A DNA stretch of 64,000 bases from Frankia alni (GTDB taxonomy: Bacteria > Actinomycetota > Actinomycetes > Frankiales > Frankiaceae), in NCBI GenBank assembly GCA_026225295.1, contig JAMFSN010000309.1, positions 62,001 through 126,000 on the forward strand, read 5' to 3'. Shown one piece after another: positions 52,670 through 62,443 of this stretch. The position numbers were made by a program, and so were the translations under genes. Below the pieces are notes generated by a model. The model had not been told where the DNA came from. It searched no databases and saw nothing but the letters and a program-made list of their open reading frames with translations. The stretch's first letter is position 1. Every line of letters starts with the position of its first letter.

Positions 52670-54508
52670 TCACCTGCCGGGCAGTGGCCCGGGCTGGCTG
52701 GCTGGCTGGATCATCTGGGAGCTGCGTCCGGGTCGGCCGGCGGCGAGTTGGAAGGCGCTGACGACCAGAGCGAAGTGGCTGAAGGCCTGCGGGGTGTTGC
52801 CCAGTTGCCGCCGGGTGTGGGGATCCCATTCCTCGGACAGCAACCCGACGTCATTGCGCAGCGTCAGGAGCCGTTCGAACAGGGCGACCGCGTCGTGGTG
52901 GCGGCCGGCCGCATGGAGGGCGTCGACCAGCCAGAACGAGCAGGCCAGGAAGACACCCTCGCCGGCGGGCAGCCCGTCGTCACCGGACTCGGTCCGGTAG
53001 CGCAGGACGAGGCCGTCCTCGGTGAGTTCCCGCTCAATCGCTTCGACGGTCGCCACGACCCGCGGGTCGTCGCCGGGCAGGAACCCGACCCGCCCGATGA
53101 GCAGGAGGCTCGCGTCGAGGTCGCTGCTCCCGTAGGACTGCACAAACGTGCCGCGTCGGCTGTTGAATCCCTGGGCGAGGATGTCGGCCCGGATGGTGTC
53201 GGCGAGCGCCTCCCACCGGTCGGCCGGACCGGGCAGGCCGTGGTGGCGTACGGCGTCGACCATGCGGTCCGCGGCCACCCAGGCCATCACCTTCGAGTGG
53301 GTGAAGTGGCGGCGGGGGCCGCGCATCTCCCACAGGCCGTTGTCGGGGTCGTTCCACCGCCCCTCCAGATGTTCCATCAGCGCGACCTGGAGGTCCCAGG
53401 CATCGTCCTTGGCACTGATCCCGGCGTCGCGGGCCAGGTGCAGCCCGTCGAGGACCTCGCCCCACACGTCGAGCTGGAGCTGGTCGGCGGCGGCGTTCCC
53501 GACCCGCACCGGGATCGAACCCTCGTAGCCACCCAGCCACGGCAGGGTCTGCTCGGGCAGCCGGCGGGTGCCGTCCAGGCCATACATGATCTGCAACGTG
53601 GACGGGTCGCCGGCGACGGCCCGCAGGAGCCATTCGCGCCAGGCATTGGCCTCCTCGATGTAGCCGGCGGCCAGCAGCGCCTGCAGGGTGAAGGTCGAGT
53701 CGCGCAGCCAGCAGTACCGGTAGTCCCAGTTACGGGGGCCGCCGACCTGCTCGGGCAGCGAGGTCGTGGCGGCGGCGACAATCCCGCCGGTGGGCCGGAA
53801 CGTCAGCGCCTTCAGCACGATGAGGGACGAGCGGACGTCCTCGGCGTAGCGGCCCTGGACCTTCGCGCCCGACGACCACACCTTCCAGAACGCGACCGTG
53901 TCGGTCAGCGCGTCCTCGGGACTGACCGGGGCCGGGGCCCGGTAGTGGCTCGGTGACCAGGTGAGCACGAACGGGACCCGGTCGCCCGGGCGCACCGTGA
54001 AGTCCCCGACCGTCGTCCATTCCTGGCCGGTCATCTCCACCGGCGTCCGTAGCCAGGCCGAATCGGGTCCGGCCACGGCCTCCACGACCCCCGTACGGTG
54101 GCGCACCCACGGGGTGATGTTGCCGTAGTCGAACCGCAGCCGCAGGTCCGAGTGCATCGGCACCGCGCCGGTCACGCCCTCGACGATGCGCACGATGTCG
54201 GGTGCGTTCCCCCGCGGGGGCATGAAGTCGACGACCCGCACCCGGCCGTCCGGGGTGTCCCACTCGGTCTCCAGGACCAGTGTGCCCGGGCGGTACCGCC
54301 GTCTCGTACACCCACCGCTGACGCCGGCCGCGGTCGGCGCGATCCGCCACCGACCGGCCTCGGGGCCACCCAGCAGCGCCGCGAAACAGGCCGGCGAGTC
54401 GAAATGCGGCAGGCACAGCCAGTCGACGGAGCCGTCCCGGCCGACGAGCGCGGCGGTGTGCAGGTCGCCGAGCAGCGCGTAGTCCTCGATCGGGGTCGGG
54501 GTCGTCAC
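52670..54508 (-). CDS. GH15-family glucan/trehalose hydrolase
   Basis: 612-residue glycoside hydrolase family 15 protein: an N-terminal beta-sandwich starting PIEDYALLGDLHTAALVG with GSVDWLCLPHFDSPACFAALL, then an (alpha/alpha)6 barrel with WDYRYCWLRDSTFTLQALL. The paired catalytic glutamates are probably those in GEGVFLACSFWL and LSEEWDPHT. Actinobacterial members of this layout are trehalases or glucoamylases; it releases glucose in either case. GTG 54508 overlaps the intended stop of the glucose-dehydrogenase frame as GTGA. No signal peptide, so it acts in the cytoplasm. Confidence 0.9.
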   Translation of the reverse strand: MTTPTPIEDYALLGDLHTAALVGRDGSVDWLCLPHFDSPACFAALLGGPEAGRWRIAPTAAGVSGGCTRRRYRPGTLVLETEWDTPDGRVRVVDFMPPRGNAPDIVRIVEGVTGAVPMHSDLRLRFDYGNITPWVRHRTGVVEAVAGPDSAWLRTPVEMTGQEWTTVGDFTVRPGDRVPFVLTWSPSHYRAPAPVSPEDALTDTVAFWKVWSSGAKVQGRYAEDVRSSLIVLKALTFRPTGGIVAAATTSLPEQVGGPRNWDYRYCWLRDSTFTLQALLAAGYIEEANAWREWLLRAVAGDPSTLQIMYGLDGTRRLPEQTLPWLGGYEGSIPVRVGNAAADQLQLDVWGEVLDGLHLARDAGISAKDDAWDLQVALMEHLEGRWNDPDNGLWEMRGPRRHFTHSKVMAWVAADRMVDAVRHHGLPGPADRWEALADTIRADILAQGFNSRRGTFVQSYGSSDLDASLLLIGRVGFLPGDDPRVVATVEAIERELTEDGLVLRYRTESGDDGLPAGEGVFLACSFWLVDALHAAGRHHDAVALFERLLTLRNDVGLLSEEWDPHTRRQLGNTPQAFSHFALVVSAFQLAAGRPGRSSQMIQPASQPGPLPGR

Positions 54509-55642
54509 CGCGACGCGCTCCGCGGCGTCGCGGCCGGTCCGGCCGCCGCCGGGACGGAGGCGTGGCTCGGCGCAGGAGGCGGTGGGGCGCTCGACAGGGC
54601 AGCGGTCACCTCCAGGACGACCTTGACGTCGCCCGGCCGGCGGGCGAAGCCGTCCGCGAACTCCTCGAGCGGGACCCGACGGGTGATCAGGCGACCCAGC
54701 CAGGCCGGATCCGCCGCCGCGAGCGACCGCCGCGGCGTCGTAGTGGCGCCGATTCGCGTTGACGCTGCCGAAGATCACATCATTGCTGAGGACGAGTTGA
54801 CGATTGAGACCACCCATGTCCAACGGGATCTGGGTGCCGGTGCTCGAGACGCCGGTCAGACAGACGATCGCGTCCAACCCGCTGTGCGTCGCCACGTCGA
54901 CGATCGCTGAGGGAACGCCGGTGCATTCGACCGTCACATCCGCGTGGATGCCCGAGTCCGGCAACGATTCCGGGTGGTACGTCGCGCCGAGGGCCCGAAC
55001 GAGGTCCGGTTTGAGCCCGGTCGCCACCCGGTCGAAAACGTGGACCTCCAGCCCACGCTGGCGTCCGAGCAGCGCGGCGAGCAGTCCGACCGGGCCGGCG
55101 CCCGTCACCGCCGCGACCTTCGGTGCCGAGAAGGCGCGGGACCCGATCCGGTCGATCTGCTCCCACGCCTTGGCCACGATCGTGGTCGGCTCAAGCAGAA
55201 CACCCAGGTCACCCAGCGCCGGATCAATACGGACCACGGCGTCGGGGTCGGCCCGCCAGCGCTCCCGGGCGAATCCGGGCAAGCCCTTGATCCCGTGCTC
55301 CACGTATCCACCGTTGCGGCACATGTCCCACTCGCCGGCCGCGCAGGCCGCGCACGGCACCGGATCGGGGCGACGCACGATACCGACGACCAGGTCGCCG
55401 ACCGCCAACCCGCAGCCGGCCGGGGCGGACCGGACCCGGCCGAGGTTCTCATGCCCGAGAACCAGGAAATCCACCCCCGGCGGAGCCTCGCCGTATTCGG
55501 CATTGACGATTTCCGTATCGGTACCGCACAGGCCGATCGCCAACCCCTCAACCTCAACGGATCCGTCCGACTCCGGCGGTTCAGCAATATCGGCGAGCTT
55601 CAGCGAATCCTTGGTGCCCGGCGTAACCGTCAACGCACGCAT
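54505..55642 (-). pseudogene. Glucose 1-dehydrogenase-like MDR, frameshifted near its 3' end
   Basis: A zinc MDR dehydrogenase of the archaeal glucose dehydrogenase type: AIGLCGTDTEIVNAEYGEA, VLGHENLGRV, CAACAAGEWDMCRNGGY and Rossmann motif VTGAGPVGLLAA, with FGSVNANRRHYDAA in the C-terminal domain. At about 54725 the frame breaks. In the neighbouring frame the family end continues (AAADPAWLGRLITRRVPLEE, FADGFARRPGDVKVVLEV) to a TGA at 54505-54507 that overlaps the GH15 start. One base gained or lost in the G/C-rich run GCGGCGGCGG explains it. As it stands the sequence reads through into the GH15 frame. It would oxidise the glucose released by GH15. Recent mutation or assembly error. Confidence 0.75.
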
Positions 55643-58466: not shown

Positions 58467-59693
58467 TCAGATGGTCGCCAGGTAGTCGATCGCCTTCTGT
58501 GGGTCGAGGAACCACTGTTGAAAGTCGGACGGGTCGTTGAACCCGTTGACGAACCGTCGGGCGACGGTCTCGTTACCCTGGGCGGCGCCGAGGATCTGTA
58601 GGACGTGCGGAGGCGGGGGCTGGAGGAGCGCGTTCGTCCATACCGTGACGTCCTCGGCCGTCTCCCAGTATCGGTCAAAGGTCGCCTGCATCCACGTGTG
58701 ATCGAACGGCTGATCGCCGTGGGCGAGGATGCTTTCGAGGTAGGACGCCGCGCACCGGGCGGCATTGTTGGACCCCTGGCCGGTGATCGGGTCGTTGGCG
58801 ACCACGACGTCCGCCATTCCCAGCACCGGCCGGCCGGCCGGCAACTCCCCCACCGGCTTGCGGACCACCGGCGTATACCCGCCACTGAGGGTCGCTTTCC
58901 CGTCGGTCAACTCGACCTGTCCACACCGCTCGTACTCCCACGGGACGTACTGGCGGGCAAGATCGAGAATACGCCCCAGGTGCTCCTCCGGCGCGGGCCG
59001 GTCGTCCCAGCAGTCGAGCGGACCTCCCGGGATTCCCTCGAAAAAGAGGATGTCGCAATTCCCGCTGAGCGTGTACGCCGGGATGACGAACAGCTCCCCG
59101 ACCCCCGGGACGATGTTGAAGCGGACCCCGGGAACGTCCGGATGCTCGGGTCGCGGGGCCAGGCCATGCACATACGCCAGCGACAGCGCACGCTGCGGAC
59201 TGGTGTACGGCGACCGCGCGGGGTCGCGGTCGAACAGCCCGACGAGTTCCCCTTTGCCCGCGGCGACGACGACGAGGTCGAAATGCTCGGTGAGCGAGTC
59301 CAGATCGGCGGTGGTGACCCCGTGGATGACCAGTTTCCCACCGCGTTCCTCAAACAGGTCCAACCAACCGGCCATCTTCACCCGCTGATCGACGCTCTGG
59401 CCATAGTGATCGAGCGGCGCGAACCAGTCCAGGACCCGGTCACCACCCGGCCCCGCGACTGACAAACCGAGGCCGTTGAAGGGCCTGGTTTCCTTCTCCC
59501 ACAGATTCAACCCGTGATCCCGCTCGATCTGCAGCGCGGTGTGAAACATGGCCTGCGTCGACATCACGCGGCCACCGCGAATTTCCTCCGCCGTATGGGC
59601 GGACATAACGGTTACGTCATAGTCGTGCTCGCGCAGTGTCAGGGCCAGCTGCAGGCCCGACTGGCCCGCCCCCACCAGCAGTACTTTCCGCAT
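58467..59693 (-). CDS. StyA-like FAD monooxygenase
   Basis: 408-residue flavoprotein of the styrene monooxygenase (StyA) type, close to the usual ~415 residues. It begins MRKVLLVGAGQSGLQLALTL (FAD-binding GxGxxG), has AHTAEEIRGGRVMSTQAMF and the DVVVANDPITGQGSNNAARC segment near the C-terminus. StyA enzymes epoxidise styrene or indole with FADH2 from a separate reductase (StyB); none is nearby. It starts 4 bp after the stop of the GTPase gene, so it forms the last gene of the conservon. The usual fifth member is a P450, so this is an exchanged oxygenase. Confidence 0.86.
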   Translation of the reverse strand: MRKVLLVGAGQSGLQLALTLREHDYDVTVMSAHTAEEIRGGRVMSTQAMFHTALQIERDHGLNLWEKETRPFNGLGLSVAGPGGDRVLDWFAPLDHYGQSVDQRVKMAGWLDLFEERGGKLVIHGVTTADLDSLTEHFDLVVVAAGKGELVGLFDRDPARSPYTSPQRALSLAYVHGLAPRPEHPDVPGVRFNIVPGVGELFVIPAYTLSGNCDILFFEGIPGGPLDCWDDRPAPEEHLGRILDLARQYVPWEYERCGQVELTDGKATLSGGYTPVVRKPVGELPAGRPVLGMADVVVANDPITGQGSNNAARCAASYLESILAHGDQPFDHTWMQATFDRYWETAEDVTVWTNALLQPPPPHVLQILGAAQGNETVARRFVNGFNDPSDFQQWFLDPQKAIDYLATI

Positions 59694-59696
59694 CCG

Positions 59697-60347
59697 CTAT
59701 ACCCTTCGAGATTCAGGACCATCGGCCAGTGACATGGTGTGCACGACAAGCTCCCGCAGCGCGGCGACGGTGGACGCGGGATCGCGGGCGTCGACGGTGA
59801 TCAGTGGAATCTCCGATCCGAGAGCGAGCGCGTCGCGCACCTCGCCCAAGTCGTGCCACAGCTGGCCGCCGAACAGGTTGACCGCCACGATGAAGGGAAT
59901 ATCGGAGTCGTTTTCGAAGTAGTTAACCGCCGCGAAGGACTGGTCCAGGCGGCGGGTGTCCACCAGCACGATCGCTCCGAGCGCGCCGCGCGTCAGATCG
60001 TCCCACATGAACCAGAACCTGGCCTGCCCGGGCGTGCCGAACAGGTACAGCACCAGGTCCGGGAAAAGGGTGATCCGCCCGAAGTCCATCGCGACGGTCG
60101 TGGTGATCTTCGCCTCGCTCCCGGACAGGTCGTCGATGCCGCGGCTGGCTTCGGTCATCCACGCCTCGGTATTGAGTGGAGGGACTTCGGAGACTGATCC
60201 CACGAACGTGGTCTTGCCGACCCCGAACCCGCCCGCAATGACAATCTTAGCGGAGATCGTCACCGATTCTGGTGTGATCCGGCCGCCCCCGGCCGAGCCG
60301 CCCGTCAACGTTTCCACCGGCGCGAACCGGAGCTGGGGGGCTTTCAT
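59697..60347 (-). CDS. cvnD: Conservon GTP-binding protein (CvnD-like)
   Basis: 216-residue small GTPase-like protein. Walker A is GGFGVGKTTFVGSVSE (residues 39-54), switch/G3 is YLFGTPGQARFW (TPG replacing the usual DTAG), and a VAVNLFGG segment stands where NKxD would be. It is the bacterial Rab/MglA-like type found in conservons, which relays the histidine kinase signal. An N-terminal Gly-rich leader of ~30 residues is variable in the family. It overlaps the DUF742 gene by 4 bp (ATGA). Confidence 0.93.
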   Translation of the reverse strand: MKAPQLRFAPVETLTGGSAGGGRITPESVTISAKIVIAGGFGVGKTTFVGSVSEVPPLNTEAWMTEASRGIDDLSGSEAKITTTVAMDFGRITLFPDLVLYLFGTPGQARFWFMWDDLTRGALGAIVLVDTRRLDQSFAAVNYFENDSDIPFIVAVNLFGGQLWHDLGEVRDALALGSEIPLITVDARDPASTVAALRELVVHTMSLADGPESRRV

Positions 60348-60730
60348 ACCGGCAGCCTCCCCAGCCCGCTCAGAACCCGCGCGAGCACATCGTTGCTGTG
60401 CTGCAGGGCGGCGGCCGTCGGGTGGATGAAAACGGCCTCCTGCATGGCGAGATCGCTGATGAGAACGCGGACCACGCCGAGCGGAATCGTCAACAACGCG
60501 GACAGTTCAGCGATAGATACCTGGCCGCGGGCCTGCTCATACAACGTCCTGGACTCGGGCATGAGCGCGGCACTGAGGACGGGGTCGTAGTGCGGCACCG
60601 AGATCAGCGTCTCGAGCAGCAGCTGGTACCGCGTACGGGTGCGACCGCCCGTGAGCGCGTACGGTCGGATGCGCTTGCTCCGGCGACCAGTGGTCGGCGC
60701 TCTCCCGGCGGTGATCTCGGACCTCGTCAT
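60344..60730 (-). CDS. cvnC: DUF742 conservon protein (CvnC-like)
   Basis: 128-residue DUF742 protein with RIRPYALTGGRTRTR and the winged-helix-like part LLTIPLGVVRVLISDLAMQEAVFIH. Members bind the conservon GTPase or act as adaptors. The start ATG 60730 lies 8 bp after the roadblock stop, and its stop overlaps the GTPase start, giving strong coupling. No ribosome binding site of its own is clear. Confidence 0.92.
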   Translation of the reverse strand: MTRSEITAGRAPTTGRRSKRIRPYALTGGRTRTRYQLLLETLISVPHYDPVLSAALMPESRTLYEQARGQVSIAELSALLTIPLGVVRVLISDLAMQEAVFIHPTAAALQHSNDVLARVLSGLGRLPV

Positions 60731-60738
60731 CCGGAGGC

Positions 60739-61188
60739 CTACCCTTGCCGATCCGGAGCCCGGTGTCCCACGAGCAGCTGCCGCATCCCCGACCGGGCCT
60801 CGGGCGTCAGCGCGTGCCCCGCATGCAGCACGAACTGCGTCATCTCGTAGGCGACGACCTTCATATCGCAGTCCGGACCAGTGAGCACGGCCAGGCCGGC
60901 GCCGGTGTCAATGCTCATGAACAGGAAATAGCCGCGGCTGAGCCGGACGATGATCTGCTCGCAGGTCCCGGCCCCGAACAGCATCGCGCTGTTACTGGCC
61001 AGGCTCAGCATGCCGCTCGCGATCGCCGCGAGCTGCTCGGCCTTGTCGCCGTCCACCGTGTCCGATGCGGTCAACAGCAGGCCGTCGGACGACAGGATCA
61101 GAGCATGCGCGACGCCGTGAACCTTGTGCACGAAATCGTTGATCAACCAGGCGAAGTCCTGGTCGGGGCGGTGGGTGTCGTCGTCCAT
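60739..61188 (-). CDS. cvnB: Roadblock/LC7 conservon protein (CvnB-like)
   Basis: 149-residue roadblock/LC7 domain protein with WLINDFVHKVHGVAHALILSSDGLLLTAS, an ASGMLSLASNSAMLFG helix and a C-terminal acidic-basic tail. In conservons it is thought to act as the GTPase activator or regulator alongside the histidine kinase. It lies 13 bp after the kinase gene and 8 bp before DUF742. ATG 61188 is the obvious start. Confidence 0.93.
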   Translation of the reverse strand: MDDDTHRPDQDFAWLINDFVHKVHGVAHALILSSDGLLLTASDTVDGDKAEQLAAIASGMLSLASNSAMLFGAGTCEQIIVRLSRGYFLFMSIDTGAGLAVLTGPDCDMKVVAYEMTQFVLHAGHALTPEARSGMRQLLVGHRAPDRQG

Positions 61189-61201
61189 CGCTACCGTTTC
61201 C

Positions 61202-62443
61202 TCACACCTCTCGCGGTTCTTGGCGGGCGGCGCGTTCCCCTTCAGAGAAGGCGTCCAGATCGGCGAGCAGTTGCTCTCGCCGGGCAGCGCTACCCGGCGA
61301 AGGTGGCGGCGCCGGGCCCCGGTCCGATCCGCCCCTCAAGCTGCCCGGCACCCGTCGCGGCAACGCACCGGGGGCCAGCTGGCCCCGGGCCGCTTCGGGA
61401 CCGGGCTGGAGGTTGGCGGTCACGCCAGCGGGGACGGGGGGACGCCAGCGGGTGGGGATGGCGCCGCCCCGGCCCGCGCCCTCCGTCGGATCGCCCGCCG
61501 CACGGTGCGCGGCCACCGGAAGCGGGGCCCCGGCCGGCGCCGAGGCGACCGTCCGGGTGCCGGACCACCCCGCCTTGGGCAGCTCGCAGACGAGAGCGGC
61601 GGGCAGCAGAATTGACGCGGTCGTGCCGTGCGGGTGCCGCTCCTCGAGCCACACGCGGATCTCGTGGCGCTCAGCAAGCCGGCGCACGACCGCCAGACCC
61701 ATATGCCGGACGGCGTCGTCATCGAGCGCCGGCGGATCGGTCAGGCGCCGGTTAAGGTCGCTCAGCCGATCCGGCGGCAGGCCGATGCCGTCGTCCTCCA
61801 CCCGCACCAGTGTCCGGCCGCGTTCGGTCAGATGGACCCCGACCCGAACCGGCATGCTCGGTGGCGACGACTTCGTGGCGTTGTCCAGGAGCTCGCTCAG
61901 CAGCCGGCCGACGTCTTCGGCGGCGAAGCCGACCACCCCCAGCGAGACGACGCTGCCGATCGTGACCCGGTCGTAGTGGTCGATGGGTGACATCGCAGCG
62001 CGGATCACGTCCACCAACGGCTGGTTCCCCGACGCCGTCAGGCTCGCGTCGTGACCGGCCAGCACCCGCAGATTCTCCGCGTTCCGGCGTAGGCGGGCGG
62101 CCAGATGGTCGAGGTGGTAAAGCTCGGCCAGCCGCTCACTGTCCTCCTCCCGCGCCTCGAGATCCTCCAGCCGACCGAGCAACCGGTCGACCAGATTGAG
62201 GTCCCGCAGCGCCAGATCCGCACAGATCGCGGACAGTGCCTGTTCAGTGTCACGTAAAGCGGGACGGCCCGGCACAGCGACCCCGGTCAACCGCCCCCGA
62301 AAGGACGCCCCCGAAAGGACGCCGGCGGGAAGGGTCGGAACGGGTCCAGACTGCCAGGCGCGACGCAGCCGTTGAGCGGCGATGCGCGAGACAGTCAGCA
62401 ACTCGCGTGAGCGGTCACGTCGCTCATGACCCCGCTTTGTCAT
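61202..62443 (-). CDS. cvnA: Soluble histidine kinase-like protein (CvnA-like, short)
   Basis: 413-residue kinase. The H-box is HLDHLAARLRRNAENL with His113 as the probable phosphoacceptor, the N-box is SELLDNATKSSPP, and ATP-lid motifs are VEDDGIGLPP and GLAVVRRLAERHEIRVWL. Conserved kinase parts fill residues 65-280; the last ~130 residues are Pro/Gly-rich and probably disordered. No membrane segment or extracellular sensor domain is present, unlike typical CvnA proteins (often 700 residues or more), so input must come from inside the cell or another protein. ATG 62443 has GAGG 11 nt upstream. It leads the roadblock, DUF742, GTPase and monooxygenase genes. Confidence 0.9.
   Translation of the reverse strand: MTKRGHERRDRSRELLTVSRIAAQRLRRAWQSGPVPTLPAGVLSGASFRGRLTGVAVPGRPALRDTEQALSAICADLALRDLNLVDRLLGRLEDLEAREEDSERLAELYHLDHLAARLRRNAENLRVLAGHDASLTASGNQPLVDVIRAAMSPIDHYDRVTIGSVVSLGVVGFAAEDVGRLLSELLDNATKSSPPSMPVRVGVHLTERGRTLVRVEDDGIGLPPDRLSDLNRRLTDPPALDDDAVRHMGLAVVRRLAERHEIRVWLEERHPHGTTASILLPAALVCELPKAGWSGTRTVASAPAGAPLPVAAHRAAGDPTEGAGRGGAIPTRWRPPVPAGVTANLQPGPEAARGQLAPGALPRRVPGSLRGGSDRGPAPPPSPGSAARREQLLADLDAFSEGERAARQEPREV

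Follow-up and report, generated by a model that had tools for sequence, protein, structure and literature searches.

A conservon of Frankia alni with an indole-monooxygenase-like flavoprotein encoded behind its GTPase gene

The DNA analysed here is a window of 64,000 nucleotides (64 kb) from Frankia alni (contig JAMFSN010000309.1, positions 62,001 to 126,000). Its minus strand carries five open reading frames (ORFs) in the order cvnA-cvnB-cvnC-cvnD-FMO, that is, a conservon followed by the gene of a flavin monooxygenase (FMO). Across several actinobacterial orders the FMO has been co-inherited with its conservon as a single lineage, and this unit of five genes is ancient and occurs widely among actinobacteria. 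The FMO is very probably a functional part of the conservon system, where it probably serves either as an internal sensor or as the output. That it acts as an input rather than as an output is given an even chance.

The five-gene operon

All five ORF products gave Pfam matches above the cut-off, and the standard conservon order of kinase, roadblock, DUF742 and GTPase genes claimed by the original prediction was confirmed. The first gene, cvnA (61202-62443), encodes a soluble sensor-kinase-like protein with DHp-like helices, a HATPase_c domain (1e-17) and a C-terminal LPRR motif; as had been predicted, it is short (413 amino acids) and has no predicted transmembrane segments, and a NIT domain is also absent. 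It is followed by cvnB (60739-61188) for a roadblock/LC7 protein of the MglB type (149 amino acids; Robl_LC7, 1.9e-18), cvnC (60344-60730) for a DUF742 protein (128 amino acids; 3e-26) and cvnD (59697-60347) for a small Ras-like GTPase (216 amino acids; ATP_bind_1, 3e-26), the GTPase motifs of which are intact (P-loop GGFGVGKT, TTVAMDFG and FGTPGQ). The product of the fifth gene (58467-59693), with 408 amino acids, belongs to group E of the flavin monooxygenases and falls in the indole monooxygenase (IMO) branch (Smoa_sbd, 3e-45); Pfam detected neither a P450 nor a GAF domain in it.

The junctions from cvnA to the FMO gene are +13, +8, -4 and +3 bp. The FMO gene therefore does lie directly behind the GTPase gene, at a distance of 3 bp and not of the 4 bp given before. 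A Shine-Dalgarno-like GAAGGG (59702-59707, minus strand), read from the sequence, is located within the 3' end of cvnD, so that translation of the FMO is probably coupled to that of cvnD. For the same reason, and with a gap of 3 bp, there is no space in the gap for a separate promoter of the FMO gene, which the original prediction had named as a finding that would count against it. A promoter and terminator scan of the region found no sigma-70-like promoter, a sigma-70 scan being uninformative for an actinobacterium.

The assignment as a conservon rests on the order of cvnA-B-C-D on one strand, on the GTPase motifs of CvnD and on the LPxR motif of CvnA, which has been reported for conservon kinases (PMC4316618). 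The absence of a NIT domain and of transmembrane segments does not argue against it, because a NIT-type membrane sensor is present in most CvnA proteins but varies within the family (PMC13343842). The fifth gene occupies the position of the CvnE and CvnF accessories, right behind cvnD and alongside a NIT-less CvnA. Two further full conservons, both with a NIT-domain membrane kinase, are present in the same genome (C280 and C150), which its nearest relatives place in the family of Frankia, Parafrankia and Pseudofrankia. Genome-wide, the cvnB product is one among five Robl_LC7 matches and the cvnC product one among three DUF742 matches, while C280 and C150 encode paralogues of CvnD and C252 gives a weak, partial match. 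The locus on C252 (L100, G000:C252) has a GTPase gene and two roadblock-like ORFs that are arranged divergently, without DUF742, and is not a standard conservon.

Linkage and co-inheritance in relatives

Relatives were taken from 397 genomes of the phylum, 25 of which matched, and from 395 genomes of the class, 89 of which matched, with differing E-value limits. A search of genome contigs yielded 33 loci. The actinobacterial ones had a conservon directly upstream of the FMO gene, some being cut by the contig end, and none was present upstream at three proteobacterial loci (Acinetobacter, Burkholderia). For 74 of 122 distinct FMOs altogether, the gene followed cvnD immediately or came after a tandem FMO gene in that position, in a sample that is biased to close relatives and does not give the natural frequency. 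The linked copies belong to Frankiaceae, Pseudonocardiales, Actinopolysporaceae, Streptomycetaceae and other taxa, and the linkage that the original prediction expected in relatives was thus found in several orders. Linked copies occurred alongside unlinked ones once identity fell below about 60%. Tandem FMO genes were present in Amycolatopsis, Actinoalloteichus and others, with three FMO genes in L154, and in L017 (5522-6732) tandem GTPase genes precede the FMO gene, the second of them lacking parts of the GTPase domain.

The genes beyond the FMO gene vary between genera, which marks the five genes as the conserved block, and no metabolic neighbour common to the FMO loci of Frankia, Actinopolyspora and Streptomyces was found. 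In one subclade (L146, L148, L149, L150 and L151) the FMO gene is followed by that of a modular polyketide synthase of about 2150 amino acids, which in L148 (8802-15200) has the domain order KS-AT-ACP-KS-AT-DH; L147 has the FMO and a modular polyketide synthase gene without a conservon. At L120 (6549-8473), L131 (6470-9597) and L157 (7024-8698) a cvnD-like gene stands right before FMO genes, and no cvnA-B-C was found within about 7 kb of these pairs. The GTPase motifs of the cvnD-like product are intact in L120 and L131 and degenerate in L157.

In an FMO tree (quick search), all linked copies fell inside one clade of 94 rows (SH-aLRT 93). This clade is sister to, and not nested within, a clade of unlinked, reductase-coupled indole monooxygenases that includes proteobacterial ones. 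The linkage label changed 7 times on the tree, compared with 38 changes in shuffles. A second tree, of concatenated CvnB, CvnC and CvnD, covered 88 conservons, among them the background conservons from ten genomes. Here 52 FMO-conservons and one FMO-less member (L192) formed a single clade (support 100/99) among the NIT-sensor conservons. The tree ruled out that the Streptomyces conservon had recruited the FMO independently, as lower CvnD scores had hinted. The distances between FMOs and those between the concatenated conservon proteins were closely correlated over 38 loci (r = 0.90; highest value among 2000 shuffles, 0.44). The dN/dS values of the FMO (0.08-0.22) indicate purifying selection.

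The P450 conservons formed a clade of their own elsewhere in the second tree, apart from the FMO clade, and two genomes of the Frankia family (G004 and G011) contain both an FMO-conservon and a P450 conservon. The FMO has therefore not replaced a usual P450, as had been proposed, and the premise that conservons often carry a P450 at the fifth position did not hold either, since most of the conservons sampled had none. Each conservon lineage tends to carry its own accessory.

Two other kinds of gene were noticed behind cvnD. At five loci of Frankiaceae, L099 (G000:C150, 7108-8304), L178, L179, L184 and L201, a protein of about 390 amino acids with a C-terminal LuxR-type helix-turn-helix (Pfam GerE below the cut-off) is encoded directly after cvnD. 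These conservons form one separate clade (support 97/93), and through this protein the conservon may act directly on transcription. A similar-looking arrangement is that of Frankia EAN1pec, where the LuxR regulator gene fkmR5 follows fkmR1-R4 (PMC4383371). L175 (2792-4564; Streptomyces-like genome G643) was first scored as FMO-linked and was set aside, as its product is an unrelated FAD_binding_3 enzyme; it is another flavoprotein adjoining a conservon, encoded behind the cvnD of an unrelated one.

Flavoprotein, reductase partner and kinase sensor

The closest solved relatives of the FMO by sequence were VpIndA1 and the chains of the Acinetobacter baumannii indole monooxygenase, with about 478 bits versus 154 for StyA. 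An AlphaFold model of the FMO (pLDDT 94.8) matched VpIndA1 with a template modelling score of 0.97 at 54% identity, and StyA with a score of 0.90 at 30% identity. At the positions of the published IMO fingerprint, S46-Q48-M50-V/I73-I76-A96 (PMC13101512), the window FMO has S, Q, M, F, L and G, so that three of six residues match and S, Q and M are kept; in most of the linked relatives the residues are S, Q, M, I, L and A. The styrene monooxygenase (SMO) fingerprint N46-V48-H50-Y73-H76-S96 is not present in the window FMO, and the score of 226 against the NCBIfam StyA equivalog was below the cut-off of 550. Score, fingerprint and identity together rule out the StyA membership that had been suggested: the FMO is indole-monooxygenase-like and not StyA-like in the strict meaning of the term.

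All 74 linked FMOs have the same residues at the FAD motif positions G8, G10 and G13 (GxGxxG), D295, P302, Q306 and N309. Several Smoa_sbd positions, in contrast, were altered across the linked clade as a whole, for example with F for V at position 217 and I or M for F at position 204. Because the FAD residues are invariant and the substrate-binding-domain and fingerprint positions have changed, the FAD site appears to be retained and the probable ligand site to have drifted, and the ligand need not be indole itself. R380, considered as a partner mark specific to linked copies, was rejected because it is common in unlinked relatives too.

Of the 18 indole monooxygenases in the sister clade, 15 had a flavin-reductase ORF no more than 1.5 kb away, and in one example an AraC-type regulator was also near. 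No flavin-reductase gene was found near any of the 74 linked FMOs or of the 20 unlinked FMOs of their own clade, although some of the loci scanned had only 1.5 kb of flank, and distant reductases could escape. A paired StyB gene, which the original prediction had proposed to look for, was found neither in the 64-kb window, where other flavin-reductase genes were also absent, nor beside any linked homologue. Elsewhere in the genome there are five PF01613 flavin reductases above the cut-off.

In the kinase of the window, H113, N188 (N-box) and the LPRR motif at 361-364 are invariant in 17 relatives, and the structure model consists of two long helices, an ATPase fold and a low-confidence tail. 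The following counts cover conservons with a complete cvnA and use transmembrane segments called by hydropathy only; they are not independent, because some loci are near-duplicates. The kinase had no predicted segment in 37 of 37 FMO-conservons outside Streptomycetaceae, whereas segments were present in 28 of 29 conservons without FMO, the sole exception being L192 inside the FMO clade. The P450 conservons kept two or more segments, with a loop of 10-20 amino acids in six of eight cases. The ten Streptomyces FMO-conservons had two segments about 300 amino acids apart and a NIT domain in both of those tested, and the Yinghuangia FMO-conservon had segments with an 11-amino-acid loop and no NIT domain. 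As Streptomycetaceae are sister to the remaining FMO-conservons, the nearest outgroups carry long-loop sensors and the Streptomyces FMO-conservons keep theirs, the most parsimonious sequence of events is a gain of the FMO followed by loss of the kinase sensor. The loss of the usual reductase partner and, outside Streptomycetaceae, that of the sensor are correlated.

Elsewhere in the window, a 990-amino-acid ORF (52670-55642, minus strand) joins a glucose dehydrogenase-like part and a glycoside hydrolase 15 part via a low-complexity stretch; it is possibly a frameshift or a misjoined reading frame.

Role of the monooxygenase and known systems

The balance is even for the FMO being a conservon accessory of a third type, next to the P450 and GAF types, that gives a cytosolic input to a sensorless kinase. 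The FMO would bind FAD and, in addition, a small ligand of aromatic or indole-like nature, or would report the flavin redox or oxygen state. It would contact the soluble CvnA and set its activity, CvnA would set the nucleotide state of CvnD via CvnB and CvnC, and CvnD would then act on an effector. In its clade the FMO would have the role that the GAF protein CvnF8 has for Cvn8 in Streptomyces coelicolor. Because CvnE and CvnF accessories accompany CvnA kinases without a NIT domain and CvnF8 stimulates CvnA8 (PMC13343842), the FMO would by analogy be expected at the input, and the loss of the kinase sensor after acquisition of the FMO favours an input over an output role. A more specific proposal, namely that a reductase-uncoupled group E monooxygenase was turned into the receptor of a G-protein system, with a flavin site that signals redox or oxygen state or an aromatic ligand to the soluble kinase and so permitted loss of the membrane sensor, is tentative.

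Some observations weigh against an input role. The Streptomyces FMO-conservons retain the NIT sensor, so the FMO is no simple stand-in for the sensor there. L120 and L131 keep cvnD beside the FMO gene while cvnA-B-C have gone from the neighbourhood, which fits a bond between GTPase and FMO better, although plain distance from the FMO gene would yield the same order of gene loss. The FAD-site residues appear intact, which is compatible with an ordinary enzyme role.

In the signalling-to-oxygenation module of the original prediction, CvnD-GTP would bind and control the FMO, and the FMO of an active system would oxygenate a substrate such as an aromatic metabolite. This output role is the main rival and is less likely than the input role. 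It agrees with the intact FAD motifs, with the adjoining cvnD, which stays in place even in L120 and L131, and with the polyketide synthase gene of one subclade. It has parallels in a Streptomyces conservon that lies ahead of a pathway for prenylated indoles, the FMO of which is a different one (PMC3617294), and in mycobacterial MfpA, which is encoded right behind a conservon and binds its GTPase in the GTP-bound state (PMC4316618). However, it leaves the loss of the kinase sensor within the clade unexplained, the enzyme would have no accompanying reductase gene, and the three genera compared share no metabolic neighbour.

An independent housekeeping or detoxification monooxygenase, with its reductase encoded elsewhere and merely co-transcribed with the conservon for a shared condition, is unlikely. 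The five PF01613 reductases and the related FMOs without a conservon, 20 of them in the same clade, would suit such an enzyme, but co-inheritance over several orders despite changing other neighbours, the correlated sensor loss and the lack of the adjoining reductase or AraC-type regulator seen with copies of the indole monooxygenase type argue against it. Chance neighbours or an annotation artefact can be dismissed: the linkage is found in relatives, the gene order is the same around 74 FMO genes, the FMO is under purifying selection and the trees are congruent.

Conservons are abundant in actinobacteria, and the FMO clade offers a way to study what they sense and act on. Its partner protein is fixed, foldable and cofactor-bearing and its kinase is fully soluble, so that the five-protein system should be tractable in vitro, and the order of FMO gain, absence of a dedicated reductase and sensor loss predicts where the FMO acts.

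Compared with known systems, the FMO shares the Smoa_sbd family fold with StyA/StyB, but it is only 30% identical, scores below the StyA equivalog cut-off and lacks both the SMO fingerprint and StyB. VpIndA1 and the A. baumannii enzyme (9lrq) have the same fold, FAD motifs and S, Q and M at 46, 48 and 50, with 52-54% identity; they differ at Smoa_sbd positions, and their genomic partners are an adjacent reductase and an AraC-type regulator instead of a conservon. In the Streptomyces SCO7467/SCO7468 prenyl-indole clusters, a conservon likewise adjoins a flavin monooxygenase gene for indolic compounds (PMC3617294), but SCO7468 is dimethylaniline monooxygenase-like, of another FMO class, and lies in a biosynthetic cluster with a prenyltransferase. 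The mycobacterial mfp conservon also has a partner protein encoded right after it, although MfpA is no oxygenase and has DNA gyrase as an interaction partner (PMC4316618).

A 2026 survey of accessories names the P450 and GAF types, and its main text mentions no flavin or oxidoreductase (PMC13343842). No paper combining conservon or roadblock with styrene monooxygenase was found in a literature search that left supplementary tables and subscription papers outside, and none describing an FMO accessory was found. The FMO is a further accessory type added to the two described for conservons. The S. coelicolor conservons (actinobacterial G-protein systems, AGPS) with CvnE (P450) or CvnF (GAF) share with it the four core genes and their order, the fifth gene directly behind cvnD and, Streptomyces FMO-conservons excepted, a kinase without an extracytoplasmic sensor. 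The FMO-conservon differs from them in its group E flavoprotein and its separate clade, and from the P450 conservons sampled, which keep two transmembrane segments with a mostly short loop, in its fully soluble kinase.

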